Source of the DNA: Methanobrevibacter sp.
Lineage (GTDB): Archaea; Methanobacteriota; Methanobacteria; Methanobacteriales; Methanobacteriaceae
Reading direction: 5' to 3'
Length of the DNA stretch: 64,000 nt
Assembly (NCBI RefSeq): GCF_017447225.1
Contig: NZ_JAFSNZ010000015.1
Span: forward strand, 1-64,000
The position numbers and the translations under genes were made by a program. Below the pieces are notes generated by a model. The model was not told the origin of the DNA, did no database searches, and saw nothing but the letters and a program-made list of their open reading frames with translations. Shown one piece after another: positions 1,323 through 20,082 of this stretch. The first letter of the stretch is position 1, and the number at the start of each line of letters is the position of its first letter.

Positions 1323-4300
1323 ATGAAGTACAGAAAAAGCATAATCGTAATAATGCTTGCTATTTTTATTTTTTCAATTGCAGCCGTAAGTGCAAGTGAT
1401 GTGAATGATACAGCAATAGCAAGTGAAGATACAGGACAGATGGAATTGTCTGCTAGTGACGAAATAACTGATACATTAAATGTAAACATTAATGAAGAAA
1501 AATTAACATTTGGAAATATATGGTATGTTAATTCAAGTGCAATAAATGGTGAGGGGACATTAGACAATCCCTTCAATAATTTAATGGATACAATAAGTGC
1601 AAGTAGCGACAACGACATCATCAGGATTGCATCCGGAACATATGCTGGTGAAAGCAATACCAACCTAATCATTGACAAGAATTTGACCTTTGAAAGATAT
1701 GGTGATGGTGAGGTGATTTTTAATGGAAGTGGCACTACAATTTGGGAAATTCAATCTAAAAGCATAAACATAACCGGACTTACATTTCAAAACGGACATG
1801 GTGGAAATGGAGGTGCACTTCTCTTCAAGTCAGAACTTATCAATTCCAACATAAATGCTAACTTCAATAATAACTATGCAAGTTTCGGTGGGGCAATCTA
1901 CTTTGCAGGGTCCCTGACAAATGTAAACATAACAGGAAATTTCACAAAAAACACTGCCAATGGTCACAGCTATGATATGGATGGTGGAGGAGCAATATGC
2001 TTTTTCAAAGAACTGAATCATGTAAACATAATAGGGAACTTCACAGACAATATAGCCCAAGACAATGCTGGAGCAAACTCCTTCAAATCTAAAATTACTA
2101 ATGTGAACATTTTCGGAAACTATAATAATAACACTGCAACTGGCCAGAACGGAGGGGCAAACTGGTTTAGTGCACTTGAAAACGTGACTATAACTGGTAA
2201 TTTCACCAACAATAAGGCATTAGGCAGTGGAGGAGCAAACTTCTTTTATGAACTACTGGAAAATGTGAACATAATCGGAAATTACATAAACAACACCGCA
2301 AGTGCTTCTAATGGAGGAGCTAACCGATTTAACGGAGAACTAAGAAATGTTGCAATAATTGGTGATTACTCATACAATAAGGCGAAATATGGAGGAGCAA
2401 ACTACTTTGATGGTAGGTTAAATAATGTTAACATAACTGGAAACTACTGCCACAATGAAGCTGGTGTAGAAGGTGGAGCGAACCGTTTAGGATACTCAGT
2501 CCTAGTGAATATAATTGGAAATTACACCAACAATACCGCAAAAGGTACAGGATTATGGAGCGGCGGCGGAGCAATCTATGTCCAGAATACTCCAGCTGAA
2601 CTTAACATTGAGGCAAACTTCTACAACAACACTGCAGTAAGTCAGGGTGCGGCAATTTGCTTCTATGATTCCATGAGCAATGTGGATGTGACTGGAAATT
2701 TAATAAACAACAATGGAAAATCAGTGATTTATTGTTATGGTACTTCAAACAGTATCATACATGACTCAATTTTTATAAACAATTCTAAAATAAACGTTGA
2801 CGGATCAGGCACTATTAAAATCGTTGACACATGGTTTGGAAACAATGCTACAAACTATAATATTCCTCCTTCTGAACAAAAGATTGACTTTGAAAACTGG
2901 CTGTTCTTAAATGCAACAGTTGATTCAAATATTGATGACGATTCAAAAATAAGCAATATAACCTTCAAATTATCTTCTTATAATGCCTCTGGTGTATCAG
3001 ACTACGACAATAATCTATTAAACCTTATCAATCTGACAATCACTGCAACCAATGGTAATATTGCAGGCACTGCGAGATTAGGTGAATCAGTTCAATTCAC
3101 ACCAACCAGTGGTGGAACCGCTACTGTGACTGCAACTGTGGAAAATGCTCGCCAAACAGTTGAAATCCCAGTAAAAGGAGACTTTGATTTATTACAGGAT
3201 TTAGTGAATAATGAATCTTTGTCTGTCATCAATCTGGAACGCAACTACACCTACAATCAATTCGACACAATAACTGATGGTGTAGTGATAAATAGAGCTA
3301 TAACAATCAACGGTAACGGTTATACTATCGATGCTAATGGAAAATCCCGTATTTTCAAAGTTACTGGTAATGATGTGGCTTTAGAAAACATCACTTTTGT
3401 AAATGGTAACACTACAAGTAGTGGTGGTGCGGTTTACTTTAGTCAATCTGGTAGGATTATAAATTGTAATTTTACTGACAACACTGCAACTGGAGATGGT
3501 GGTGCAGTTTACTTCTCTAATACTGGGACTGTGTCAAATTGTAATTTTACTAACAACACTGCAACAATATCTGGTGGTGCAGTTTTCTTCTTGAATACTG
3601 GTAATGTGACAAATTGTAATTTTATTAATAACACTGCTAATCAATCTGGTGGAGCAGTATATGTTGACGGGGCTTACAGTGATTCTAAAATCAACTCAAC
3701 ATTCATCAATAACCAAGCATATAATGGTGGAGCAATATACTTCAAAGGCGGAATCAACAATGTCTCAATCGGCGGTGTTTATAAAGACAATGTTGCTTTA
3801 AGAGGCGGTGGTGCAATATTTGTCCGTGGAAACTCCATGAACAATAACTTCACCGCTGAATTCACCGGCAACGAGGCAAGAGCCGCCAGTGGAGGAGCAA
3901 TATTCATTTACAATCAAGCTGACAACAACAGGTTTGAAGGCATTTACAGGGACAATTGGGCACTGTATGGTGGAGGAATCTTTTTCTACAACAAGGCAAA
4001 CAATAACGTATTCAACACTGAATTCATAAACAACACTGCAAAATCCTGTGGTGGTGCAATGTTTTTCCACAACACTACCGATGGGAATAACTTCACAGGA
4101 GATTTCACAAACAACCGTGCATTGGGTCAAGTCGATTCAGAAAACGGAAACGGTGGAGCAATAACCTTCAAGGACACATCATCCAACAGCTTATTCAACA
4201 GTGACTTTATAAACAACAATGCAAGCCTGAACGGTGGAGGCGTAAACTACCGCCACACTCCATACAACATCACATTCAACAGCAATTTCATAAACAACAC

Positions 4301-7300
4301 TTCCCCTAGAGGTGGAGGAGTGAATTTCTTTGAAACATTCGAGAATGTCGTATTCAATGGAGAGTTCATCGGCAACTCAGCAGATAATGGTGGTGCAATC
4401 GCTACTGTAGGTGGAATCATCATGGATGTTTCATTCAAGGACAATCATGCTGAAGATGAGGGTGGAGCAGTTTATTTCAAAGGATCCGCTGTGGTTGAGA
4501 ATTGTAATTTCACTAACAACACTGCAGACTATGGTGGTGCGGTTTACATTTTTGGCACTGGTGAAGTGAGGGATTGTGTTTTTATTAATAACACTGGTTT
4601 TGTATTTGCTGGCGCTTTAATGATGATTTACGGTACTGTGAGTGATTCCAGTTTCACCGGCAACACTGCACACATTGGTGGAGCTGTCAGAATCAATGGT
4701 GAAGCTACTGTGACAAGGTGTAATTTCACTGACAACACTGCAACATTGGAAGGTGGTGCGGTCTACTTAGGCTCCCCAGGTAATGTGGCATTCACCAATT
4801 TCATCGGCAACAAAGCAACCGGCGACGGTGTTGGGGGCGGAGCAGTCCTCTTATATGGGGGAGGCAATGTATCATATTCCAATTTCACCAATAACCATGT
4901 ATCCACTGATGGTGGAGCGGTTCACTTCTATGATAACGGTACTCTAAGCTATTGTAACTTCTATGATAATGAGGCTGGAGTTACTGGTGGTGCGGTTTAC
5001 TTCTATAATAATGGTACAGTTTCAAACTCTAATTTCATAGGCAATGAAGCGAATGGTGAGAAAAGTTCTGGTGGAGCAATTTGCTTTGATGAGGCAGGAA
5101 ATGTTATAAATTCTATTTTCACAGCCAACAAGGCTACTAGAACTGGGGGTGCAATATATGTTGGTGAAAAATCAACCAATAACAATTTCTCAGCCCAATT
5201 CTATAATAATCATGCAGGACAAAGCGGTGGAGCAATATTCTTCCGCAACTCAGTCGAAAACAATACTTTCGATGGCATTTTCAAGGACAACACTGCGAGC
5301 TACGGCGCAGGAATCTTTTTCTACAATAAGGCAAACGGCAATAAGATTGAAGGCGACTTCATAAACAACACTGCCAAATCATGCGGCGGTGCAATGTTTT
5401 TCTACAATACAACCGATAAGAACAACTTCTCAGGCAGTTTCATCAACAACAGCGCTTTAGGTCAACTTGATCCGACAGTTGGAAACGGTGGGGCAATAAC
5501 ATTCAAGAACGTTTCCACCAACTGTGTATTCACCTGTGACTTTATAAACAACACTGCCTCCCTTAACGGTGGTGCTGTAAACTACCGTGAAAATCCGTCA
5601 AACATCACATTCAACAGCAATTTCATAAACAACACTTCCCCTAGAGGTGGAGGAGTCAATTTCTTTGGAAACTTTGAAAATGTAATATTCAATGGTGAAT
5701 TTATTGGAAACTCAGCAAAATTTGGTGGTGCAATCGCCACAATCAATGGAATCATTAAGGGCGTTTCATTCAGGGACAATCATGCTGAAATGGGCGGGGC
5801 AATTTTCTTCGCCGAGTCCTGTGAAATCCGGGATTGTAATTTCACAGCCAACACTGCAGATTATGGTGGTGCAATTTACTTGGATATTGAATTTATCAAT
5901 ATAATGAACTGTAATTTCATTAACAACACTGCTTCTGCTTCTGGTGCGGCTGTCAATATTGAGACCGGTAATTTGACCGATTGTAATTTCATTAACAACA
6001 CTGCTTCTGCTTCTGGTGGTGCTGTCGTAATGACTTCAGGTAATGTGACAAATTGTAATTTCACCGGTAACACTGCATCTAAGTTGGGTGGTGCTGTCGT
6101 AATGGATTCAGGTAATGTGGCAAATTGTAATTTTACTAATAACAAAGCAACCGGCTCTAATAGTTGTGGTGGTGCAATTTTCTTTGCAAGTACTGGTAAT
6201 GTAACAAATTGTAATTTTGTTGATAATAAAGCAACTTCTTATGATGGTGGTGCTATTTACTTCAGTAGTTCTGGTACTGTTGAAAATTGTAATTTTACTA
6301 ACAACACCGCAACCAATGGTGATGGTGGTGCTATCTGGATGTATTCTGGTAGTGTTGAAAATTGTAATTTTACTAATAACTCTGCTTCTGAGGATGGTGG
6401 TGCAATTTACTTTGAGAATTCAGGTAATGTGACAAATTGTAATTTTACTAATAACTCCGTATCCGATTGGGGTGGTGCAATTTACATGTATTCAGGTAAT
6501 GTTGAAAATTGTAATTTTACTAATAACTCTGCTCGTTATGGTGGTGCTATCAGATTCAGTTCCACTGGTAATGTAACAAATTGTAATTTTACTGCCAACA
6601 CTGTAACCTATTATGGTGGTGCAGTTTACTTCTGGGGTGAGGGTAGTGTGGCAAATTGTAATTTCACTGGCAATAATGCGACTACTGGTTCTGCAATTTA
6701 CTTCTACTCAGATTGGGCTACTAAAACTGTTTCCGATTCTACTTTCTTAAACAATAGAGCAAATGCTGAAGCTTTAGATGTAGTTAAAAATGATAATAAT
6801 ATTACAATTACATTCACAGGCAGGAATAACCTTTTAAATGCAATTTATTCTAAATATGATGCGGAAGTTACTTTTACCAATGTGACCTATTGGGGAGCAA
6901 AGGGAATTACAACAGTCAGTGCTACATTGTCCGGATCCAATAAGGCAGCCGGTCAAAACATCACTGTCGGGGTAGTTGTTAATAACGAGCTTGTTTTAAG
7001 CGATGTTATGGTCACAAATGAGAGCGGTATGATTGTTTTGGATATAAGTGCTGGTGAAAACTATTACATCAGCCTTCGCCATGACACAGATTCATATTAT
7101 ACCGAAGCTGAAAAAACAATCTCAAACAACACTAAATTCAATGTGAATATCACATCCCAGACAACCCATAACAAGACTGTAAATATCACTGCAAAGTCCA
7201 ATATTTTCAGTGAGGTTATGGACGGTAAATTACTATTTATAGTCCCAAACAGTGATCCGATTACTGCAACTTATGCTGGTAACGGAACATGGTGGATTGT

Positions 7301-9674
7301 ATATACTTTTGATGATTATGCTGTTTATAAGGTCAATGCAACCTTTGAGGGATTGGATAATGTAACAGTCAATAATGGAACTATAACAATCAATAAAGCT
7401 GACTCTACATTAACTGTTGGAGATGTTGAATTCGATTACAATAGCTCCGGTTCTACAACTATTTCATTTACTGGTGCTAGTGGAGTTAATGCCAATGTTA
7501 TCGGTCAGCCTAATGCTAATGTTAATGTAGCTGGAAATACGATTACAGTTTCAGGATTAAACGCAGGAACATATACTTTAAGTGTTACTACAATAGCTGA
7601 TGCCGACCACAATAACGTGACTAAAACAAGTACAATAACCGTCAATAAAATTAATTCCACATTAACTGTTGGTGACATCACATTTGATTATAATAGTACT
7701 GGTTCTACAACTGTTTCATTTACTGGTGCTAGTGGAGTTAATGCCAGTGTTATCGGCCAGCCTAATGCTAATGTGGCTGTATCTGGAAATACCATTACGG
7801 TTTCAGGTCTAAACGCAGGAACATATACTTTAAGTGTTACTACAATAGCTGATTCTAATCACAATAACGTGACTAAAACAAGTACAATAACCGTCAATAA
7901 GATAAATTCCACATTAACTGTTGGTGACATCACATTTGATTATAATAGTGCTGGTTCTGGTTCATTATCCTATGATGGCGCTACAGGAGTTAACGCAACT
8001 GTTGTTGGTCAGCCTGATGCTGTTGTTAATGTTAAAGATGATGCAATCACTGTATCCAATTTAAATGCAGGTAATTATACTTTGACTGTTACTACAATAG
8101 CTGATATTAATCATAATAACGTGACAAAAACTGCAAAGATCACTGTTAACAAAGTTGATTCAACATTAACTGTTGGTGATATCGTATTTGATTATAACAG
8201 TTCAGGCTCAACTACAATTTCATTTGAAGGTGCTACTGGAGTTAATGCCAGTGTTGTCGGCCAGCCTGATGCTGTTGTTGATGTTAATAATGACTCAATT
8301 ACAGTATCTGCTTTGAATGCGGGCAATTACACTTTATGTGTCACTACAATTGTCGATGCTAATCATAATAATGTGACTAAAACGGCTAAAGTCACTGTCA
8401 ATAAGGCAACATCCGCAATCAATATCTCTTTGGACTCAGTTTATAAGGTTGGACAAAGTATTGAAATAATGTTAATTCCGGTTAACTCCACAGGAAACGT
8501 ATATCTAAGCATTAATGGTGTAAATTACACTGTTAATGACAATAAGGTGGCCATTCCTGATGGTCTTGCCAACGGCACATATGATGTTGTTGCAAAATTG
8601 GATGGTGACGCAAATTATCTTGAATCAGAAAACACGGCAACATTTGAAGTTGAAAATGATATTGAAGTAATTGTTTCTGATCTTGTCAAATACTATTCCA
8701 ATCCGGAAAGGCTTATCGTCAATGTTACCAAAAACGGTGAAGCGGTTTTAAATGCAAGTGTTATGATTACAATCAACGGTGTTACTTATAATAAAACGAC
8801 CGATGACGATGGTATCGCATCCCTTGCCATTAATTTATATGGAGGAAATTACTCAGCAGATGTGGAAGTTCCGGATTATGGAATTTCAAAGACAGTTGAC
8901 GTTATAGTAAAATCCAATATATATGCGGAAGATGTTGTTAAGGTATTCAGAAACGGCACTCAATATAATGCATTATTCCTTGACGGAAACGGCAACAACC
9001 TATCAAACACTAATGTTAGCTTTAACATTAATGGTATAATCTATAACCGCACTACCAATGCGTCCGGCTGGGCAACGCTTAACATAAACCTTGGAAAAGG
9101 ATCATATATTGTAACGGCAACCAACCCTATTACAGGATATATGAAATCAAACAACATCACGGTCATCTCCAAGCTCCAAACAAGCGATCTGACTAAATAC
9201 TTCAGAAACGATACTCAGTTTGTCGTTCGGGCAGTTGCAGATGACGGAAGCTATGCCGGTGCAGGCGAAACAGTCACATTCAACATCAACGGAGTGTTCT
9301 ACAACAGAACAACCAATGAAACAGGACATGCCAAATTAAACATTAACTTAAGACCTGGAGATTACATAATAACAAGTTATTATGATGGATGCTCTGAAGG
9401 AAATACTATTCATGTATTGCCGACGCTGACCGGAAATGATTTGAACATGACCTATGGCGACAAGTCCCAGTTCACCGTAAATCTTCTGGACGGCCAGGGA
9501 AATCCGTACGCAAACCAGAATATTACATTCAACATCAACGGAGTTTTCTACAACAGAACAACTGACGTGAATGGTGATGCGAAACTCAACATTAACCTGC
9601 AGGCAGGAGAGTATATAATCACTTCCAGCTATGGTGATGCCGTAATTTCAAATAAAATTACCATAACTTCATAA
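1323..9674 (+). CDS. Adhesin-like protein ALP1 (beta-helix plus Ig-like repeats)
   Basis: Exported surface protein of 2783 residues. Residues 1-24 form a signal peptide (basic start, hydrophobic core, AVSA before SD). Residues about 60-513 are right-handed beta-helix coils of the Chlamydia-PMP type (GGA(I/V/N), then NNTA). An Ig-like hinge covers about 520-619, and a second beta-helix about 620-1812 with many NCNFTNNTA coils. Ig-like domains follow, including four 84-residue repeats at 2028-2363, and a four-repeat C-terminal module at about 2447-2783 that ALP2 shares. There is no C-terminal membrane helix or sorting motif, so attachment is probably through the C-terminal module to pseudomurein or other wall polymer; that is inference. 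NxT sequons are extremely dense, which suggests N-glycosylation. The ATG has a GGGAG about 7 nt upstream. The ligand is unknown; related proteins in Methanobrevibacter are annotated as adhesin-like. Confidence 0.9.
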   Translation: MKYRKSIIVIMLAIFIFSIAAVSASDVNDTAIASEDTGQMELSASDEITDTLNVNINEEKLTFGNIWYVNSSAINGEGTLDNPFNNLMDTISASSDNDIIRIASGTYAGESNTNLIIDKNLTFERYGDGEVIFNGSGTTIWEIQSKSINITGLTFQNGHGGNGGALLFKSELINSNINANFNNNYASFGGAIYFAGSLTNVNITGNFTKNTANGHSYDMDGGGAICFFKELNHVNIIGNFTDNIAQDNAGANSFKSKITNVNIFGNYNNNTATGQNGGANWFSALENVTITGNFTNNKALGSGGANFFYELLENVNIIGNYINNTASASNGGANRFNGELRNVAIIGDYSYNKAKYGGANYFDGRLNNVNITGNYCHNEAGVEGGANRLGYSVLVNIIGNYTNNTAKGTGLWSGGGAIYVQNTPAELNIEANFYNNTAVSQGAAICFYDSMSNVDVTGNLINNNGKSVIYCYGTSNSIIHDSIFINNSKINVDGSGTIKIVDTWFGNNATNYNIPPSEQKIDFENWLFLNATVDSNIDDDSKISNITFKLSSYNASGVSDYDNNLLNLINLTITATNGNIAGTARLGESVQFTPTSGGTATVTATVENARQTVEIPVKGDFDLLQDLVNNESLSVINLERNYTYNQFDTITDGVVINRAITINGNGYTIDANGKSRIFKVTGNDVALENITFVNGNTTSSGGAVYFSQSGRIINCNFTDNTATGDGGAVYFSNTGTVSNCNFTNNTATISGGAVFFLNTGNVTNCNFINNTANQSGGAVYVDGAYSDSKINSTFINNQAYNGGAIYFKGGINNVSIGGVYKDNVALRGGGAIFVRGNSMNNNFTAEFTGNEARAASGGAIFIYNQADNNRFEGIYRDNWALYGGGIFFYNKANNNVFNTEFINNTAKSCGGAMFFHNTTDGNNFTGDFTNNRALGQVDSENGNGGAITFKDTSSNSLFNSDFINNNASLNGGGVNYRHTPYNITFNSNFINNTSPRGGGVNFFETFENVVFNGEFIGNSADNGGAIATVGGIIMDVSFKDNHAEDEGGAVYFKGSAVVENCNFTNNTADYGGAVYIFGTGEVRDCVFINNTGFVFAGALMMIYGTVSDSSFTGNTAHIGGAVRINGEATVTRCNFTDNTATLEGGAVYLGSPGNVAFTNFIGNKATGDGVGGGAVLLYGGGNVSYSNFTNNHVSTDGGAVHFYDNGTLSYCNFYDNEAGVTGGAVYFYNNGTVSNSNFIGNEANGEKSSGGAICFDEAGNVINSIFTANKATRTGGAIYVGEKSTNNNFSAQFYNNHAGQSGGAIFFRNSVENNTFDGIFKDNTASYGAGIFFYNKANGNKIEGDFINNTAKSCGGAMFFYNTTDKNNFSGSFINNSALGQLDPTVGNGGAITFKNVSTNCVFTCDFINNTASLNGGAVNYRENPSNITFNSNFINNTSPRGGGVNFFGNFENVIFNGEFIGNSAKFGGAIATINGIIKGVSFRDNHAEMGGAIFFAESCEIRDCNFTANTADYGGAIYLDIEFINIMNCNFINNTASASGAAVNIETGNLTDCNFINNTASASGGAVVMTSGNVTNCNFTGNTASKLGGAVVMDSGNVANCNFTNNKATGSNSCGGAIFFASTGNVTNCNFVDNKATSYDGGAIYFSSSGTVENCNFTNNTATNGDGGAIWMYSGSVENCNFTNNSASEDGGAIYFENSGNVTNCNFTNNSVSDWGGAIYMYSGNVENCNFTNNSARYGGAIRFSSTGNVTNCNFTANTVTYYGGAVYFWGEGSVANCNFTGNNATTGSAIYFYSDWATKTVSDSTFLNNRANAEALDVVKNDNNITITFTGRNNLLNAIYSKYDAEVTFTNVTYWGAKGITTVSATLSGSNKAAGQNITVGVVVNNELVLSDVMVTNESGMIVLDISAGENYYISLRHDTDSYYTEAEKTISNNTKFNVNITSQTTHNKTVNITAKSNIFSEVMDGKLLFIVPNSDPITATYAGNGTWWIVYTFDDYAVYKVNATFEGLDNVTVNNGTITINKADSTLTVGDVEFDYNSSGSTTISFTGASGVNANVIGQPNANVNVAGNTITVSGLNAGTYTLSVTTIADADHNNVTKTSTITVNKINSTLTVGDITFDYNSTGSTTVSFTGASGVNASVIGQPNANVAVSGNTITVSGLNAGTYTLSVTTIADSNHNNVTKTSTITVNKINSTLTVGDITFDYNSAGSGSLSYDGATGVNATVVGQPDAVVNVKDDAITVSNLNAGNYTLTVTTIADINHNNVTKTAKITVNKVDSTLTVGDIVFDYNSSGSTTISFEGATGVNASVVGQPDAVVDVNNDSITVSALNAGNYTLCVTTIVDANHNNVTKTAKVTVNKATSAINISLDSVYKVGQSIEIMLIPVNSTGNVYLSINGVNYTVNDNKVAIPDGLANGTYDVVAKLDGDANYLESENTATFEVENDIEVIVSDLVKYYSNPERLIVNVTKNGEAVLNASVMITINGVTYNKTTDDDGIASLAINLYGGNYSADVEVPDYGISKTVDVIVKSNIYAEDVVKVFRNGTQYNALFLDGNGNNLSNTNVSFNINGIIYNRTTNASGWATLNINLGKGSYIVTATNPITGYMKSNNITVISKLQTSDLTKYFRNDTQFVVRAVADDGSYAGAGETVTFNINGVFYNRTTNETGHAKLNINLRPGDYIITSYYDGCSEGNTIHVLPTLTGNDLNMTYGDKSQFTVNLLDGQGNPYANQNITFNINGVFYNRTTDVNGDAKLNINLQAGEYIITSSYGDAVISNKITITS
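7404..8411 (+). repeat. Four 252-bp tandem repeats encoding Ig-like domains in ALP1
   Basis: The codon for the S of STLTVGD recurs at 7404, 7656, 7908 and 8160, an exact 252-nt (84-codon) period. Copies 1 and 2 are close to identical in DNA over long stretches, while 3 and 4 have drifted, consistent with recent duplication or gene conversion of the first two. Each unit encodes one Ig-like beta-sandwich of the stalk. Copy number can be expected to vary between strains. Confidence 0.9.
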
Positions 9675-9707: not shown

Positions 9708-9825
9708 ATCAATGTTAATTGTTATTTTCTGGTTAATATTATCTGTTGGGTTTTTGAATCTGATTTTGTTTTTAAATAGTTTTATCAGAAAATTTCATTT
9801 ACTATTCGGTTATTTTGGAAAAAAA

Positions 9826-10088
9826 CTATTGGTATATTTTTGAACAATCTTCAATACGTCCAATATAAATGCAATTGTTGTCTACTCTAAAACAGATCCT
9901 ATAATTTCCTTTTCTCGCTCTTTTGTATTTTGGATTTTTTTTACTTTTTTATAATTGCTGTCTTCAGGATTGTTTAATATTTCTTCTAATTTTTCACGAA
10001 TCAATTTGTAAGCTATTGGATTTTTCTTTTTATAGTATTTCAATTGTTTTAAAGCAGAACGTTTAAATTCAAGTTCCATATTAATCAT
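9826..10088 (-). pseudogene. RelE/ParE-type toxin, frameshifted
   Basis: The N-terminal half (ELEFKRSALKQLKYYKKKNP, then a KLEEILNNP helix) is typical of RelE/ParE mRNA-interferase toxins. The frame is lost at a run of eight A (plus-strand T run 9935-9942). With nine A the reading passes into another frame encoding RARKGNYRICFRV and ending IYIGRIEDCSKIYQ before a stop at 9826-9828. That is the expected RelE C-terminus, with the conserved arginine-rich strand and Y/F-RV motif, and the restored length of about 87 residues is normal. As written the product ends after 68 residues without the catalytic strand and should be inactive. The start may be 10088 or the ATG at 10079, just after the antitoxin stop. 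A homopolymer sequencing error is the main alternative. Confidence 0.75.
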
Positions 10089-10302
10089 CTATGTATGCAT
10101 CAAGTTCATCTAATGAAGAAAAGTGAACTCCTTCACCATTTGCAAATTCTTTATCTGCTTCAATTAAGTCTTTGATTCCTTGATATTCTTCATACTCATC
10201 TAATAATTTAGAGATAATATCATTGAAAGAATCATTTTTATATCCAATGTCTGCTAATCTTTCATGATTAATTAAACTGACTCTTATAGCTTTTGTTTCC
10301 AT
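10081..10302 (-). CDS. RelB/VapB-like antitoxin
   Basis: Start chosen at the ATG at 10302 because GGTGAT lies 4 nt upstream; the longer reading to 10320 would put this site inside the gene. The 73-residue product begins METKAIRVSL and continues with SFNDIISKLLDEYEE, a ribbon-helix-helix N-terminus like the archaeal VapB/DUF7557 antitoxins, with an acidic C-terminal tail likely to wrap the toxin. It is the first gene of the pair, and its stop abuts or overlaps the toxin start. It is intact although its toxin is frameshifted. A perfect palindrome 47 nt upstream is its probable operator. Confidence 0.75.
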   Translation of the reverse strand: METKAIRVSLINHERLADIGYKNDSFNDIISKLLDEYEEYQGIKDLIEADKEFANGEGVHFSSLDELDAYIDD

Positions 10303-10367: not shown

Positions 10368-10413
10368 AATCAACAATATTGATTTAAAATCATCTATTTT
10401 TTGAATATGTTAA

Positions 10414-10597
10414 GTTTATAAATATTAGTTTTTAATCTATTTTCAAAATAAATCGGTAGGTTTATAAATATCAGTTTATTATCCTATGCTGTAATCATAA
10501 ATATGATTAGTTTTTCAGTCAAACTCGATATATTTATTAAATCAGTTTAAGTGGCATCTGTGTTTTTTCATCTAGTCGCAGTTTGAAAATATTTATC
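10414..10597 (+). repeat. Dispersed intergenic repeat module upstream of the zeta cassette
   Basis: This gene-free stretch carries three repeat elements. At 10414-10479 lies a tandem pair homologous to 1133-1206. At 10512-10550 lies a degenerate copy (TTTTTCAGTCAAACTCGATA). At 10543-10597 lies a segment containing CTAGTCGCAGTTTGAAAAT that is nearly identical to 13139-13194. The last segment ends 53 nt before the antitoxin start at 10650; its copy at 13194 ends 49 nt before the MNT gene. AAAATATTTAT within it could act as a TATA box. Confidence 0.75.
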
Positions 10598-10649
10598 ATT
10601 AATGAATTCGATATTTTATATTATAAATTAGTAATAAGGAGGATTTGTT

Positions 10650-10847
10650 TTGGTTGAAGAAAATGAATTGGATTCTACATATGGAATTTCTGATGAAGAA
10701 CTTACCGAAAGATTTAAAGCATCTATTAAGATTGATCAAGATATATGTAAGATTAAAGGACTTCCTATTGCTGGTTATGATGATGAGAATAAACGTGCTT
10801 ATTTAGAGTATCCTGATGGAAGGAGAGTTTATGTCTCAGAAAAATAG
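10650..10847 (+). CDS. Putative antitoxin of the zeta-type toxin
   Basis: A 65-residue acidic protein. The start is TTG at 10650, supported by a strong AAGGAGG ending 7 nt upstream; an internal ATG lacks such a site. The C-terminal half (GLPIAGYDDENKRAYLEYPD, then GRR) is a pattern I recall from small genes placed directly before zeta-toxin-like kinases in gut bacteria. It overlaps the downstream toxin start at 10831 by 17 nt, so translation is coupled. It should bind and block the kinase. It is intact although the kinase gene carries a stop codon. Confidence 0.65.
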   Translation: MVEENELDSTYGISDEELTERFKASIKIDQDICKIKGLPIAGYDDENKRAYLEYPDGRRVYVSEK

Positions 10848-11475
10848 GCTTCCTGAAGTTATGGTTTTCGCAGGGCCCAATGGCAGTGGTAAAACCACAA
10901 TAACACGTATGGCAAAAACTGCCGGTGTTTATATCAATGCGGACGATATTAGAAAATCAAGTTTATGCAGTGATTTGGAAGCTGCACAAAAAGCTGAAGA
11001 ACTTAGATAATCAATGCTTGAAAAATGTGAAGATTTCACATTTGAAACAGTGCTTTCTACAGATAGAAATCTGAAGTTACTTAAAAAAGCTAAAGAAAAA
11101 GGATATTTTCTAAGATGCATTTATGTCCTCACAGATGATTATGAAATAAATATCGCACGAGTAAGAATGAGACAATCCATGGGGGGTCATGGAGTTCCTG
11201 AAGATAAGATTAAATCAAGATATGAAAAGGCTCTTAATTTAATTCCAGAATTGATAGAAATTTGTGATATTGTCCATATTTATGACAATACTGTCTCTCC
11301 ATTTAGAATATTTAAGAAAAGAAAAGATGTGTATTATCACTGGGAAAATAACTATTGGAATTATTCAGATATTGAAAAGCTTACTGGAATAAGTAAATAT
11401 GAAGTGGTAAGTCTCTATTTTTATACAATTTTTTTTAATTATACCATAGGAAATATATCGGATGATATTCATTAA
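10831..11475 (+). pseudogene. Zeta-toxin-like P-loop kinase, interrupted by an in-frame stop
   Basis: Read from ATG 10831 (AAGGAGAG upstream), the first part carries Walker A GPNGSGKT at residues 15-22 and NADDI with the likely catalytic aspartate. A TAA at 11008-11010 ends it at 59 residues. The same frame continues without further stops to 11473 with FTFETVLSTDRN, an arginine-rich helix and RYEKALNLIPEL, all expected of the family, for about 214 codons in total. The stop lies where LR-E-SM would be expected, so a GAA to TAA change is the simplest explanation. Zeta toxins phosphorylate UDP-activated sugars in bacteria; the archaeal substrate is unknown. Re-initiation at ATG 11014 would give a product without a P-loop. 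Likely inactive. Confidence 0.8.
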
Positions 11476-11505
11476 ATCGATAGTTATATAAATATCAGTT
11501 TATAG
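11474..11505 (+). repeat. Dispersed intergenic repeat copy
   Basis: A single copy (AATCGATAGTTATATAAATA, then TCAGTTTATAG) beginning at the stop codon of the zeta reading frame. It belongs to the repeat family at 1120, 10414 and 13115. Confidence 0.7.
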
Positions 11506-11590
11506 GCTAATTTTCTACCACTATAATGTTTAACTTGTAAATTGGTTTTATGGTTTTCATATTAACCATGAATCAGTCTAATAAAATATT

Positions 11591-11619
11591 TTGTTAAGTA
11601 TTTATATATGTATTAACAA
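11591..11619 (+). promoter_or_regulatory. TATA box inside an inverted repeat, promoter of the ATPase
   Basis: TTGTTAA at 11591-11597 and TTAACAA at 11613-11619 flank GTATTTATATATGTA, a clear archaeal TATA box. Transcription would begin near 11630, about 30 nt before the start codon. A regulator bound to the arms would cover the TATA box and repress. The regulator is unknown; the ATPase itself or a linked DNA-binding protein is possible. Confidence 0.5.
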
Positions 11620-11661
11620 ATATTTTATTAACTAATATATTCTGAAAGGAGTTATTTGATT

Positions 11662-13113
11662 ATGGATGACAAAACACAATTAATTCTTAATTTCCTAAAT
11701 GAAAATATTTCTAATATGCCTCATGTCTTAAAGGATAAGTTAATTAACAATGATAGGAAATTAAACTGTAGATTCGAATTTGATGAAATCAGGAAAAGCA
11801 TTGATGATTTTATTGATGGAGATGAGTTAAATAGATTTATTGTGCTGCCGGGAATTAGGGGTGTTGGAAAGACAACCCTTCTTTACCAGACATATCACTA
11901 TCTGTTAAACGAAAAACACATATTGCCAGAACAGATAATTTACTTGTCATGTGATGACTTAAACAATCTTGTTGACTGCAATATAAGGGAAATCGTTGAC
12001 ATCTATCTAAACAATCAATTCAATACCAACTTAAGATTATTGGATAGAGAAATTTTCTTTTTAATATATGAATCACAATACGATAAAAACTGGGCAATGT
12101 CAGGTAAAATCATATATGACAGATCAGAAAAAATCTTCATGGTATTCACAGGTTCATCAGCACTGAATCTAGAATACAATGCAGATGCAGCAAGAAGAAT
12201 GTTTAAAAGAGTCATAACTCCCCTAAATTATAACGAACATGTGAAATTAAAATATAACTATTCCAATATCAATCTTGGAAATTCATTGGTTGACCTGATT
12301 TTAAACGGCAATAGTGAAGAAGCCATAAAATATGAAAACGAAGTCAATAGGAATTTAATCAATAATATTGAATATAGGTCTAATGATTGGGATGAATATT
12401 TAAGATATGGAGGATTTCCAATACTTGCACGTAAAATCGATTTCAGGAAACTCACAGCTAATATTGTGGATATGGTTGAAAAAGTTGTAAATACCGACAT
12501 GATTGCCATTAAAAACTTCACTTTTGAAAACCAGACAAATTCAAACAGGATACTGAGATATCTGGCACTGCAAAATGCGGGAGACCTCTCACAAAACAAT
12601 TTAGCAAAATATCTCAAAACTTCCCAGGCCAATGTAAAAAACATTTTAGACATACTGGAAAAAACACATCTGATATTTTCCATTGAAGCTTATGGAACAT
12701 CATCCAAACGCACTAAAAAAACAAAAAAATATTACTTTGCAACCAGCAGTATTAGAAATGCATTATCCATAAAATCCGGAAACACAATTAAAGACATAAA
12801 GCAATATGAAGGAATACTTTTAGAAAATTTAGTAGCATCAATATTATTCAATCTCACACAACGGGGGAATAATTATTTCACATTGTATTATGATGCCAAC
12901 AAAAAGAAGAATGTTGATTTTATATTGCAGCAGGACTTTAAAAATCCTGTGCCTATTGAAGTAGGTCGTGGCAAAAAGGATAAAAACCAAATTACTCATG
13001 CAATCAATAATTATGGCGCAGATTATGGAATTATTATCTCAAATACCACCAATAATATTGAAAAACATGACAATATCATATATATTCCTCCAAAGACATT
13101 TTCATTTTTATAG
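11662..13113 (+). CDS. Archaeal AAA ATPase with DUF4143-like C-terminus
   Basis: A 483-residue protein. The start is placed at ATG 11662, about 10 nt after AAAGGAG; a TTG at 11656 would add two residues. Residues 64-71 (GIRGVGKT) are a Walker A motif. FTGSSALNLEYNADAARR follows the core as in archaeal ATPases of this type. A winged helix follows (NLAKYLKTSQANVKNILDIL), and the C-terminus (NVDFIL, then PIEVGRG) resembles the restriction-nuclease-like fold of DUF4143 proteins. The Walker B position reads IFFLIYESQY at residues 131-140; relatives have an aspartate where Y136 stands, so ATP hydrolysis may be lost. Such ATPases are common, mobile and of unclear role. A repeat unit directly follows the stop. 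Confidence 0.8.
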   Translation: MDDKTQLILNFLNENISNMPHVLKDKLINNDRKLNCRFEFDEIRKSIDDFIDGDELNRFIVLPGIRGVGKTTLLYQTYHYLLNEKHILPEQIIYLSCDDLNNLVDCNIREIVDIYLNNQFNTNLRLLDREIFFLIYESQYDKNWAMSGKIIYDRSEKIFMVFTGSSALNLEYNADAARRMFKRVITPLNYNEHVKLKYNYSNINLGNSLVDLILNGNSEEAIKYENEVNRNLINNIEYRSNDWDEYLRYGGFPILARKIDFRKLTANIVDMVEKVVNTDMIAIKNFTFENQTNSNRILRYLALQNAGDLSQNNLAKYLKTSQANVKNILDILEKTHLIFSIEAYGTSSKRTKKTKKYYFATSSIRNALSIKSGNTIKDIKQYEGILLENLVASILFNLTQRGNNYFTLYYDANKKKNVDFILQQDFKNPVPIEVGRGKKDKNQITHAINNYGADYGIIISNTTNNIEKHDNIIYIPPKTFSFL

Positions 13114-13114
13114 T

Positions 13115-13194
13115 AAAATCGGTAGATATATAAATTATCAGTTTAAGTGTGCATCCGTGTTTTTTCATCTAGTCGCAGTTTGAAAATATTTATT
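13115..13194 (+). repeat. Dispersed intergenic repeat module upstream of the MNT gene
   Basis: Starting 2 nt after the ATPase stop, a TCGGTAGATATATAAATTAT-type copy of the dispersed repeat is joined to the segment CTAGTCGCAGTTTGAAAAT (13139-13194). The joined structure matches 10512-10597. The segment ends 49 nt before the MNT start codon. Confidence 0.75.
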
Positions 13195-13242
13195 GATGAA
13201 GTGTATATTTGTTATTATCTCATATAATCGTTGGTGATTGTA

Positions 13243-13557
13243 ATGCATAATGGAATTAAGATTGCTTATGAATTTGCTAATGCTATTGGATCTGAAGATA
13301 TCATACGCATAATATTATTTGGTTCTGTTGCTCGTCATGATGATAGCGAAGAATCTGATATAGATATTTTAATTGTCGCTTCATCAAGAGAAAAGATTAA
13401 TGATATTGTTGAGGATGAAGTTTTCAATATTAATGCTAAATTTCTTGAAGTTGTTTCAGCTCATATTATGGCTGAAGAATTTTATAATCGCACTAAATAT
13501 TATTCTTTTTTAACAAGTGTCCATGAAGAAGGTGTTTTACTTGTCGAAGGTTACTGA
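13243..13557 (+). CDS. MNT-type nucleotidyltransferase (orphan antitoxin-like)
   Basis: A 104-residue minimal nucleotidyltransferase. The start at ATG 13243 is preceded by GGTGAT. GSVAR at residues 27-31 and SDIDILIV with D39 and D41 form the metal-binding GS...DxD motif of the pol-beta fold. MntA-type proteins usually sit beside a HEPN RNase and silence it by adding AMP. No HEPN gene is adjacent: the next gene is a convergent tetR whose stop lies 1 nt away. The only HEPN-like protein in the window is 7 kb off at 20402. The catalytic residues look intact, so this may be an orphan antitoxin, or it may act in trans. Confidence 0.8.
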   Translation: MHNGIKIAYEFANAIGSEDIIRIILFGSVARHDDSEESDIDILIVASSREKINDIVEDEVFNINAKFLEVVSAHIMAEEFYNRTKYYSFLTSVHEEGVLLVEGY

Positions 13558-19891: not shown

Positions 19892-20082
19892 TATATTCAC
19901 ATCCTACAAATTAATATTAAGTTTGGATGTTGTGTTTTAAATATTTTGTTAAAAAATGAATTCATATATAAAGGGTTAATATTTTCACACAGTCGCACTT
20001 CAAATACATTAAAATATTTCATGAAACAAACTATGATGTAGGTAATATAGCTATATTTAACCAATTTTGAGAAGGTGATAAA

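Follow-up and report, generated by a model that had tools for sequence, protein, structure and literature searches.

The repeat found ahead of several toxin-antitoxin (TA) genes in the window analysed here (64,000 nucleotides of a Methanobrevibacter sp. contig) combines two elements with different roles. Judging from comparison with related genomes, we consider it likely (probability about 0.78) that the first, element A, is the site-specific recombination site of a cassette system resembling integrons and dif modules, and that the second, element B, is a separate promoter/operator. The initial annotation had treated both as a single composite module that might be a common promoter, a recombination site or the trace of a mobile element. 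The first two of these options appear to apply, each to a different half: recombination to the GATAGGTTTATAAATATCAG core, given the swapping of its flanks, its same-direction arrays and its adjacency to a recombinase clade, and promotion to the CTAGTCGCAGTTTGAAAAT segment, which lies at a fixed distance before two antitoxin families.

All repeat copies that had been named are present in the window where they were placed, and the reported distances of 53 and 49 nt from the end of the composite to the start codons (10650 and 13243) are correct. Its two copies (10521–10616 and 13110–13210) each consist of A followed by B, at two cassettes, and are 84% identical overall, with 98% identity over the 43 nt that match best (10554–10596 and 13151–13193); this near-identity of the two B copies suggests a recent local exchange. 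However, when 66 further genomes of the genus were compared, the composite proved to be two separable elements that also occur apart, and these were modelled separately, B as R1 and A as R2. Allowing up to three mismatches, the 20-nt A core has five forward and no reverse matches in the 2,156,507 bases of the window's genome, all on the same contig, while a reversed-pattern control gave no forward and one reverse match; the A core copies are far above chance. The module is therefore dispersed within a 13-kb locus but not beyond it, since a genome-wide search, as the initial annotation had proposed, finds core A nowhere else in the 2.16-Mb genome, whereas B occurs elsewhere without A (C52:2156, C52:4821 and C19:20097). 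Scanning the window for Rfam families and tRNAs found none.

The locus begins with a TA-like pair on the reverse strand (125–1013), comprising a gene for a 146-aa partner (125–565) and a DUF3990 gene (558–1013, E = 1e-47), relatives of which lie between A sites in loci L175 and L184. A tandem doublet of A on the forward strand (1117–1209, units 1117–1159 and 1164–1209, 48 nt apart; R2 E = 2e-9 and 2e-13) is placed between this pair and a forward-strand gene for an adhesin-like protein of 2783 aa with Chlam_PMP/Beta_helix repeats (1323–9674). In relatives, too, the adhesin gene is the first gene past an A site, usually about 75–160 nt downstream. Four tandem 252-nt repeats are found within this first adhesin gene (7380–8435). 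Next comes a ParE cassette, with a degenerate, forward-strand A remnant at its left end (9772–9795, seen on visual comparison with the right flank of cluster R1 and below the model threshold) and a reverse-strand TA pair identified by comparison with relatives (9882–10302). This pair consists of a ParE/RelE-type toxin gene (9882–10088), which has lost its C-terminus by frameshift (an intact relative matches ParE_toxin at 6e-8), and a 73-aa antitoxin gene (10081–10302).

The remaining features are all on the forward strand. A second tandem doublet detected by the R2 model (10403–10484, units about 10403–10437 and 10440–10484, 46 nt apart, with the core of the second unit at 10450–10477) is followed by a third, degenerate A-like unit visible in the sequence (10513–10552), which is the left part of the composite described previously. 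Element B (10560–10627, R1 E = 1.3e-17), whose distance from the start codon is fixed in relatives, forms a promoter-like block of the zeta-antitoxin operon, made up of a 65-aa antitoxin gene (10650–10847), a conserved partner of zeta in relatives, and a zeta toxin gene (10831–11475) that is broken by an in-frame TAA at 11008–11010, although intact relatives exist (Zeta_toxin 8.8e-11). A further A (11466–11507, core 11474–11501, R2 E = 3.9e-10) lies directly past the zeta stop codon, ahead of a cassette with an AAA_14-DUF4143 ATPase gene (11662–13113; DUF4143 1.5e-23, AAA_14 4.4e-20), and another (13105–13149, R2 E = 1.8e-7) directly past the ATPase stop codon. The second B (13157–13219, R1 E = 1.1e-13) is the promoter-like block of an MNT nucleotidyltransferase antitoxin gene (13243–13557; Polbeta 2.1e-9, NTP_transf_2 3.7e-8) that has no HEPN partner. 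The weak version of the second segment noted at 19991, upstream of the 20083/20390 pair, does exist as AGTCGCACTTCAAAT (19985–20030), but it falls below the level at which the B model reports (E ≤ 0.01). With its in-frame stop in zeta, its frameshift in ParE, its MNT gene lacking HEPN and no recombinase adjacent to A, the window's array is decaying. The antitoxin genes that accompany the broken zeta and ParE toxin genes stay open.

The A core (AAATCGATAGGTTTATAAATATCAGTTTAT) reads AAATCGATAGGTWTATAAATATCAGTTTATNNGCC, with positions 14–30 best conserved. Of 67 genomes of the genus (rumen-type Methanobrevibacter), 39 contain A according to the R2 model at E ≤ 0.01 and 34 at E ≤ 1e-4; at the latter threshold it is found in none of 72 genomes from 16 other genera of the family. 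Sites number up to about ten per genome and occur in arrays, in which neighbouring copies are often 0.7–1.1 kb apart, while some copies form tandem doublets at 46–48 nt. In the loci that were fetched all 39 adjacent pairs lie on the same strand, as do all 33 that remain when tandem doublets are set aside (p = 2e-10). Most of the genomes compared are draft assemblies, but arrays are also carried by the complete genome of an isolate, G004, which has six sites, and so are not an effect of draft assembly alone. The sites bound cassettes of about 0.7–1.1 kb in relatives, containing ParE, zeta, MNT-HEPN, DUF3990, Fic or AAA-DUF4143 genes, and larger adhesin cassettes are bounded by A sites likewise; further cargo includes DUF2283, HVO_A0114, DUF3800 and the recombinase gene itself, and several cassette genes match candidate defence models in PADLOC. 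A second MNT-HepT pair is close to A in G011. A is over-represented near contig ends, with eight of 59 copies at most 350 nt away from one compared to 2.05 expected, and assemblies may break at A owing to differences between strains at this site. Neither an excised circle nor a within-species pair of empty and filled sites was seen among the genomes compared, and exact-pattern scans of viral contigs matched neither A nor B, leaving a viral vehicle unsupported.

The flanks of A have been exchanged within the core. Comparison of 88 distinct copies across species gave 43 pairs in which only the right flanks are alike, 17 in which only the left flanks are and none in which both are, although vertically inherited copies are under-counted here because exact duplicates of the core region were removed before comparison. 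In the right-alike pairs identity is at background through position 17 and close to 1.0 from position 18, and in the left-alike pairs it is high through position 30 and at background from position 31, which locates the crossover switch inside the invariant AATATCAGTTTAT; looser clustering of the copies in an earlier comparison placed the switch at the same position. In alignments inspected by eye, the start of the ParE cassette is found past four unrelated left flanks, the end of the zeta gene ahead of four unrelated right flanks and the end of the recombinase gene ahead of several. Exchange of flanks with a breakpoint in a short common core, a general feature of recombination sites, is thus present in A. 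It is also seen at a hotspot downstream of hcp-type and 109-aa genes, where the left flank is common to G012, G013/G014, G017, G028 and G059 into the A core and the DNA beyond differs (a DUF3990 cassette, a zeta cassette, an adhesin, a degenerate site or other DNA); in G008 the same two genes are followed by other sequence, with no A. The ParE cassettes of G023 and G036 are 98.3% identical compared to 83.1% for the hcp genes of the same genomes, and cassettes thus appear to travel between species.

The sites of dif modules are 28-bp Xer-type sequences of 11+6+11 bp with a partial dyad. In A two dyads stand out, centred at 14.5 and 22.5, with 6.0 and 6.8 of 11 pairs complementary compared to 2.1–4.9 of 11 at other centres; the predicted recombinase binding sites are thus not fixed. 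Tyrosine recombinases require matching site centres, and the dyad at 22.5 (AGGTWTATAAA-TATCAG-TTTATNNGCC) has a near-invariant centre, TATCAG, within the crossover window. We therefore favour this second dyad as the candidate geometry of the site. The alternative division of the core, AAATCGATAGG-TTTATA-AATATCAGTTT, was demoted, its TTTATA centre varying among recombined copies.

A candidate enzyme is encoded beside A. In five intact members, A lies about 40–130 nt past the stop codon of a gene for a 331-aa tyrosine recombinase (Phage_integrase 3.5e-35), which scores 273 bits against a cutoff of 220 with the XerA_Arch model and whose closest solved chains are XerC-like/XerA; broken or fragmentary recombinase copies also adjoin A. 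The A-adjacent recombinases form one clade (support 100/99), with a sixth member, L218, that has a degenerate A after its stop codon. Members or fragments of the clade are present in 10 of 34 A-bearing genomes and in none of 33 without A (p = 9e-4), an association that adjacency makes partly circular. Some 24 of the 34 A-bearing genomes, G004 included, have no member of the clade, which weakens the case for this enzyme, and most arrays therefore look orphan; such arrays may truly lack a recombinase, in the way that integron cassette clusters can, or else be served from elsewhere. The window's genome has no recombinase beside A and two relatives of the enzyme elsewhere, on C92 (77% identity) and C116 (62%). 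The C92 copy (C92:11368) belongs to a middle group of recombinases with 70–80% identity (L217, L220, L221 and L223–L229) that adjoin neither A nor HsdS, two of which sit ahead of genes resembling type IV restriction proteins. HsdS-like genes adjoin further, more distant paralogues of the tyrosine recombinase (loci L230–L237 and L256–L263) in gut bacteria and many genomes of Methanobrevibacter, which suggests shuffling of the specificity genes of type I restriction systems.

Element B (TGTTTTTTCATAAAGTCGCAGTTTGAAAATATTTATTATTAATGAA) contains a TATA-like AAAATATTTAT, which would leave a short leader, and a conserved upstream box (AGTCGCASTTTG). A clear ORF follows 61 of 75 distinct copies, and 59 of these 61 ORFs encode either MNT (43) or the small zeta partner (16), two unrelated antitoxin families. 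B copies are thus not scattered at random with respect to gene type, and the neighbours of A include both adhesin and TA genes. The distance from B to the start codon, counted from model position 36, is mostly 51–57 nt, and such a fixed position before the start codons of different genes is a promoter feature. Given this near-fixed distance before two antitoxin families, B is most likely a promoter/operator of the MNT and zeta-antitoxin operons, independent of A. It is also found in a few genomes of three other genera of the family. At L115 in the window's genome (G000:C52, 640–5668), two B-headed TA modules, an MNT pair and a zeta pair, each lie past copies of a repeated gene family of about 200 aa (MGLFDNLFKPK...).

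We propose that the XerA-like tyrosine recombinase whose gene ends just upstream of A would cut this site and join two copies of it. The crossover would fall in AATATCAGTTTAT, so that a recombined A would combine the left half of one parental site with the right half of the other. Recombination between two A sites in the same direction would release a circle carrying one or a few genes, and recombination of this putative circle with another A site would insert the cassette there. TA pairs, adhesin genes and candidate defence genes could thereby accumulate in arrays at several places in the chromosome, and their cassettes could be exchanged between species, while B, as the predicted promoter, would drive the MNT and zeta-antitoxin operons. 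The system may still be active.

It could be argued that A and B are both promoters only. Adhesin and TA genes would then be transcribed from A as an archaeal promoter (TATA-like TTTATAAATA) conserved through its function, and the apparent swapping would reflect nothing but unrelated genes that share it. The core does include a TATA-like sequence and A does lie upstream of many adhesin genes. However, zeta, ATPase and recombinase genes also have A directly past their stop codons, in some cases with a following gene on the opposite strand, and the window's adhesin gene has a TATA-like sequence of its own near its start; A is moreover absent from the 72 related genomes. The mosaic flanks, one near-identical for hundreds of bases and the other unrelated, with the switch inside the core, also argue against a mere shared promoter, and we regard this explanation as improbable.

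Rather than being recognised by a dedicated recombinase, A could be a short repeat that serves homologous or end-joining recombination of the ordinary kind, or it could mark one end of a non-autonomous transposable element. In favour of this, most A-bearing genomes, including that of the window, have no recombinase beside A, and tandem doublets and decay are common among its copies. The explanation nevertheless seems unlikely to us, since the invariant block of recombined sites is only about 13 nt, which is short for homologous recombination, neighbouring copies all point in the same direction and the recombinase genes that repeatedly have A at their 3' end all belong to one clade. It is very improbable that the system is a true integron, with A an attC-type site and the recombinase IntI. 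TA-rich cassette arrays, a recombinase alongside and a single crossover place in the site would all fit, and integrons have been reported in archaea (PMC9668308). Against this, attC sites form structured hairpins from a single strand, tens of nt long and with paired R and L boxes; A is about 28–46 nt long and only one of five copies folds as a single strand well below its shuffles (z = -3.8, compared to -1.3 to 0.1 for the others), and the recombinase scores 85.8 against a cutoff of 265 with the integrase model TIGR02249, with the match split into two stretches. Integron membership is ruled out by this model, and a role for A as the housekeeping dif by its copy number and position.

A site-specific recombination system at A, which we prefer to these explanations, shares features with several known systems. 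Dif modules are bounded by oppositely oriented sites, whereas all neighbouring A sites have the same direction. Acinetobacter plasmids and chromosomes carry dif (pdif) modules (PMC6449649) that are nevertheless similar in being small adaptive or TA modules bounded by short Xer-type sites (putative ones in the case of A), restricted to a genus, with several sites per genome and horizontal spread; the A system differs in its archaeal chromosomes, its adhesin cargo and the putatively dedicated recombinase clade beside its sites in place of the host XerC/XerD. Integrons, including those of archaea (PMC9668308), likewise have arrays of mostly one- or two-gene cassettes with same-direction sites and many TA genes, a tyrosine recombinase nearby and some arrays without one. 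The A system has this combination of same-direction cassette array and recombinase alongside, but neither an IntI-family integrase nor a structured attC, and it differs further in having several chromosomal platforms, no recognised attI and cassettes that apparently carry their own promoters. Archaeal XerA/dif resolution (PMC2958812) involves a XerA-type recombinase, and A may be compatible with its site of two 11-bp arms around a 6-bp centre; however, A occurs at many sites in gene arrays rather than at a single terminus site, and several paralogous recombinases lie near defence genes. The hsdS-adjacent tyrosine recombinases, which occur in many gut bacteria as well as in Methanobrevibacter, are of the same family as the A-adjacent clade (about 58–68% identity), but often have an HsdS-like motif within about 0.8 kb, where the A-adjacent clade has no hsdS nearby and A sites instead.

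On balance we lean, by a modest degree, towards the view that Methanobrevibacter evolved an integron-like system of its own, in which a member of a tyrosine recombinase family that occurs beside type I restriction genes came to act on a new short site, through which TA, defence and surface-adhesin cassettes are now captured and shuffled between species and between several chromosomal platforms. We found no description of cassette exchange at such sites in Methanobrevibacter in the open-licence literature that was searched. Archaeal parallels to integrons and dif modules are rare, and the A system would be one of separate origin. In Methanobrevibacter of the rumen and gut, large adhesin genes number in the dozens and TA genes are also numerous, and we know of no explanation so far for the turnover of either; a site that bounds both would provide one mechanism for their exchange. 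As adhesins are candidate targets in vaccine work for methane mitigation (PMC2812497), a mechanism that swaps them would matter for such vaccines.
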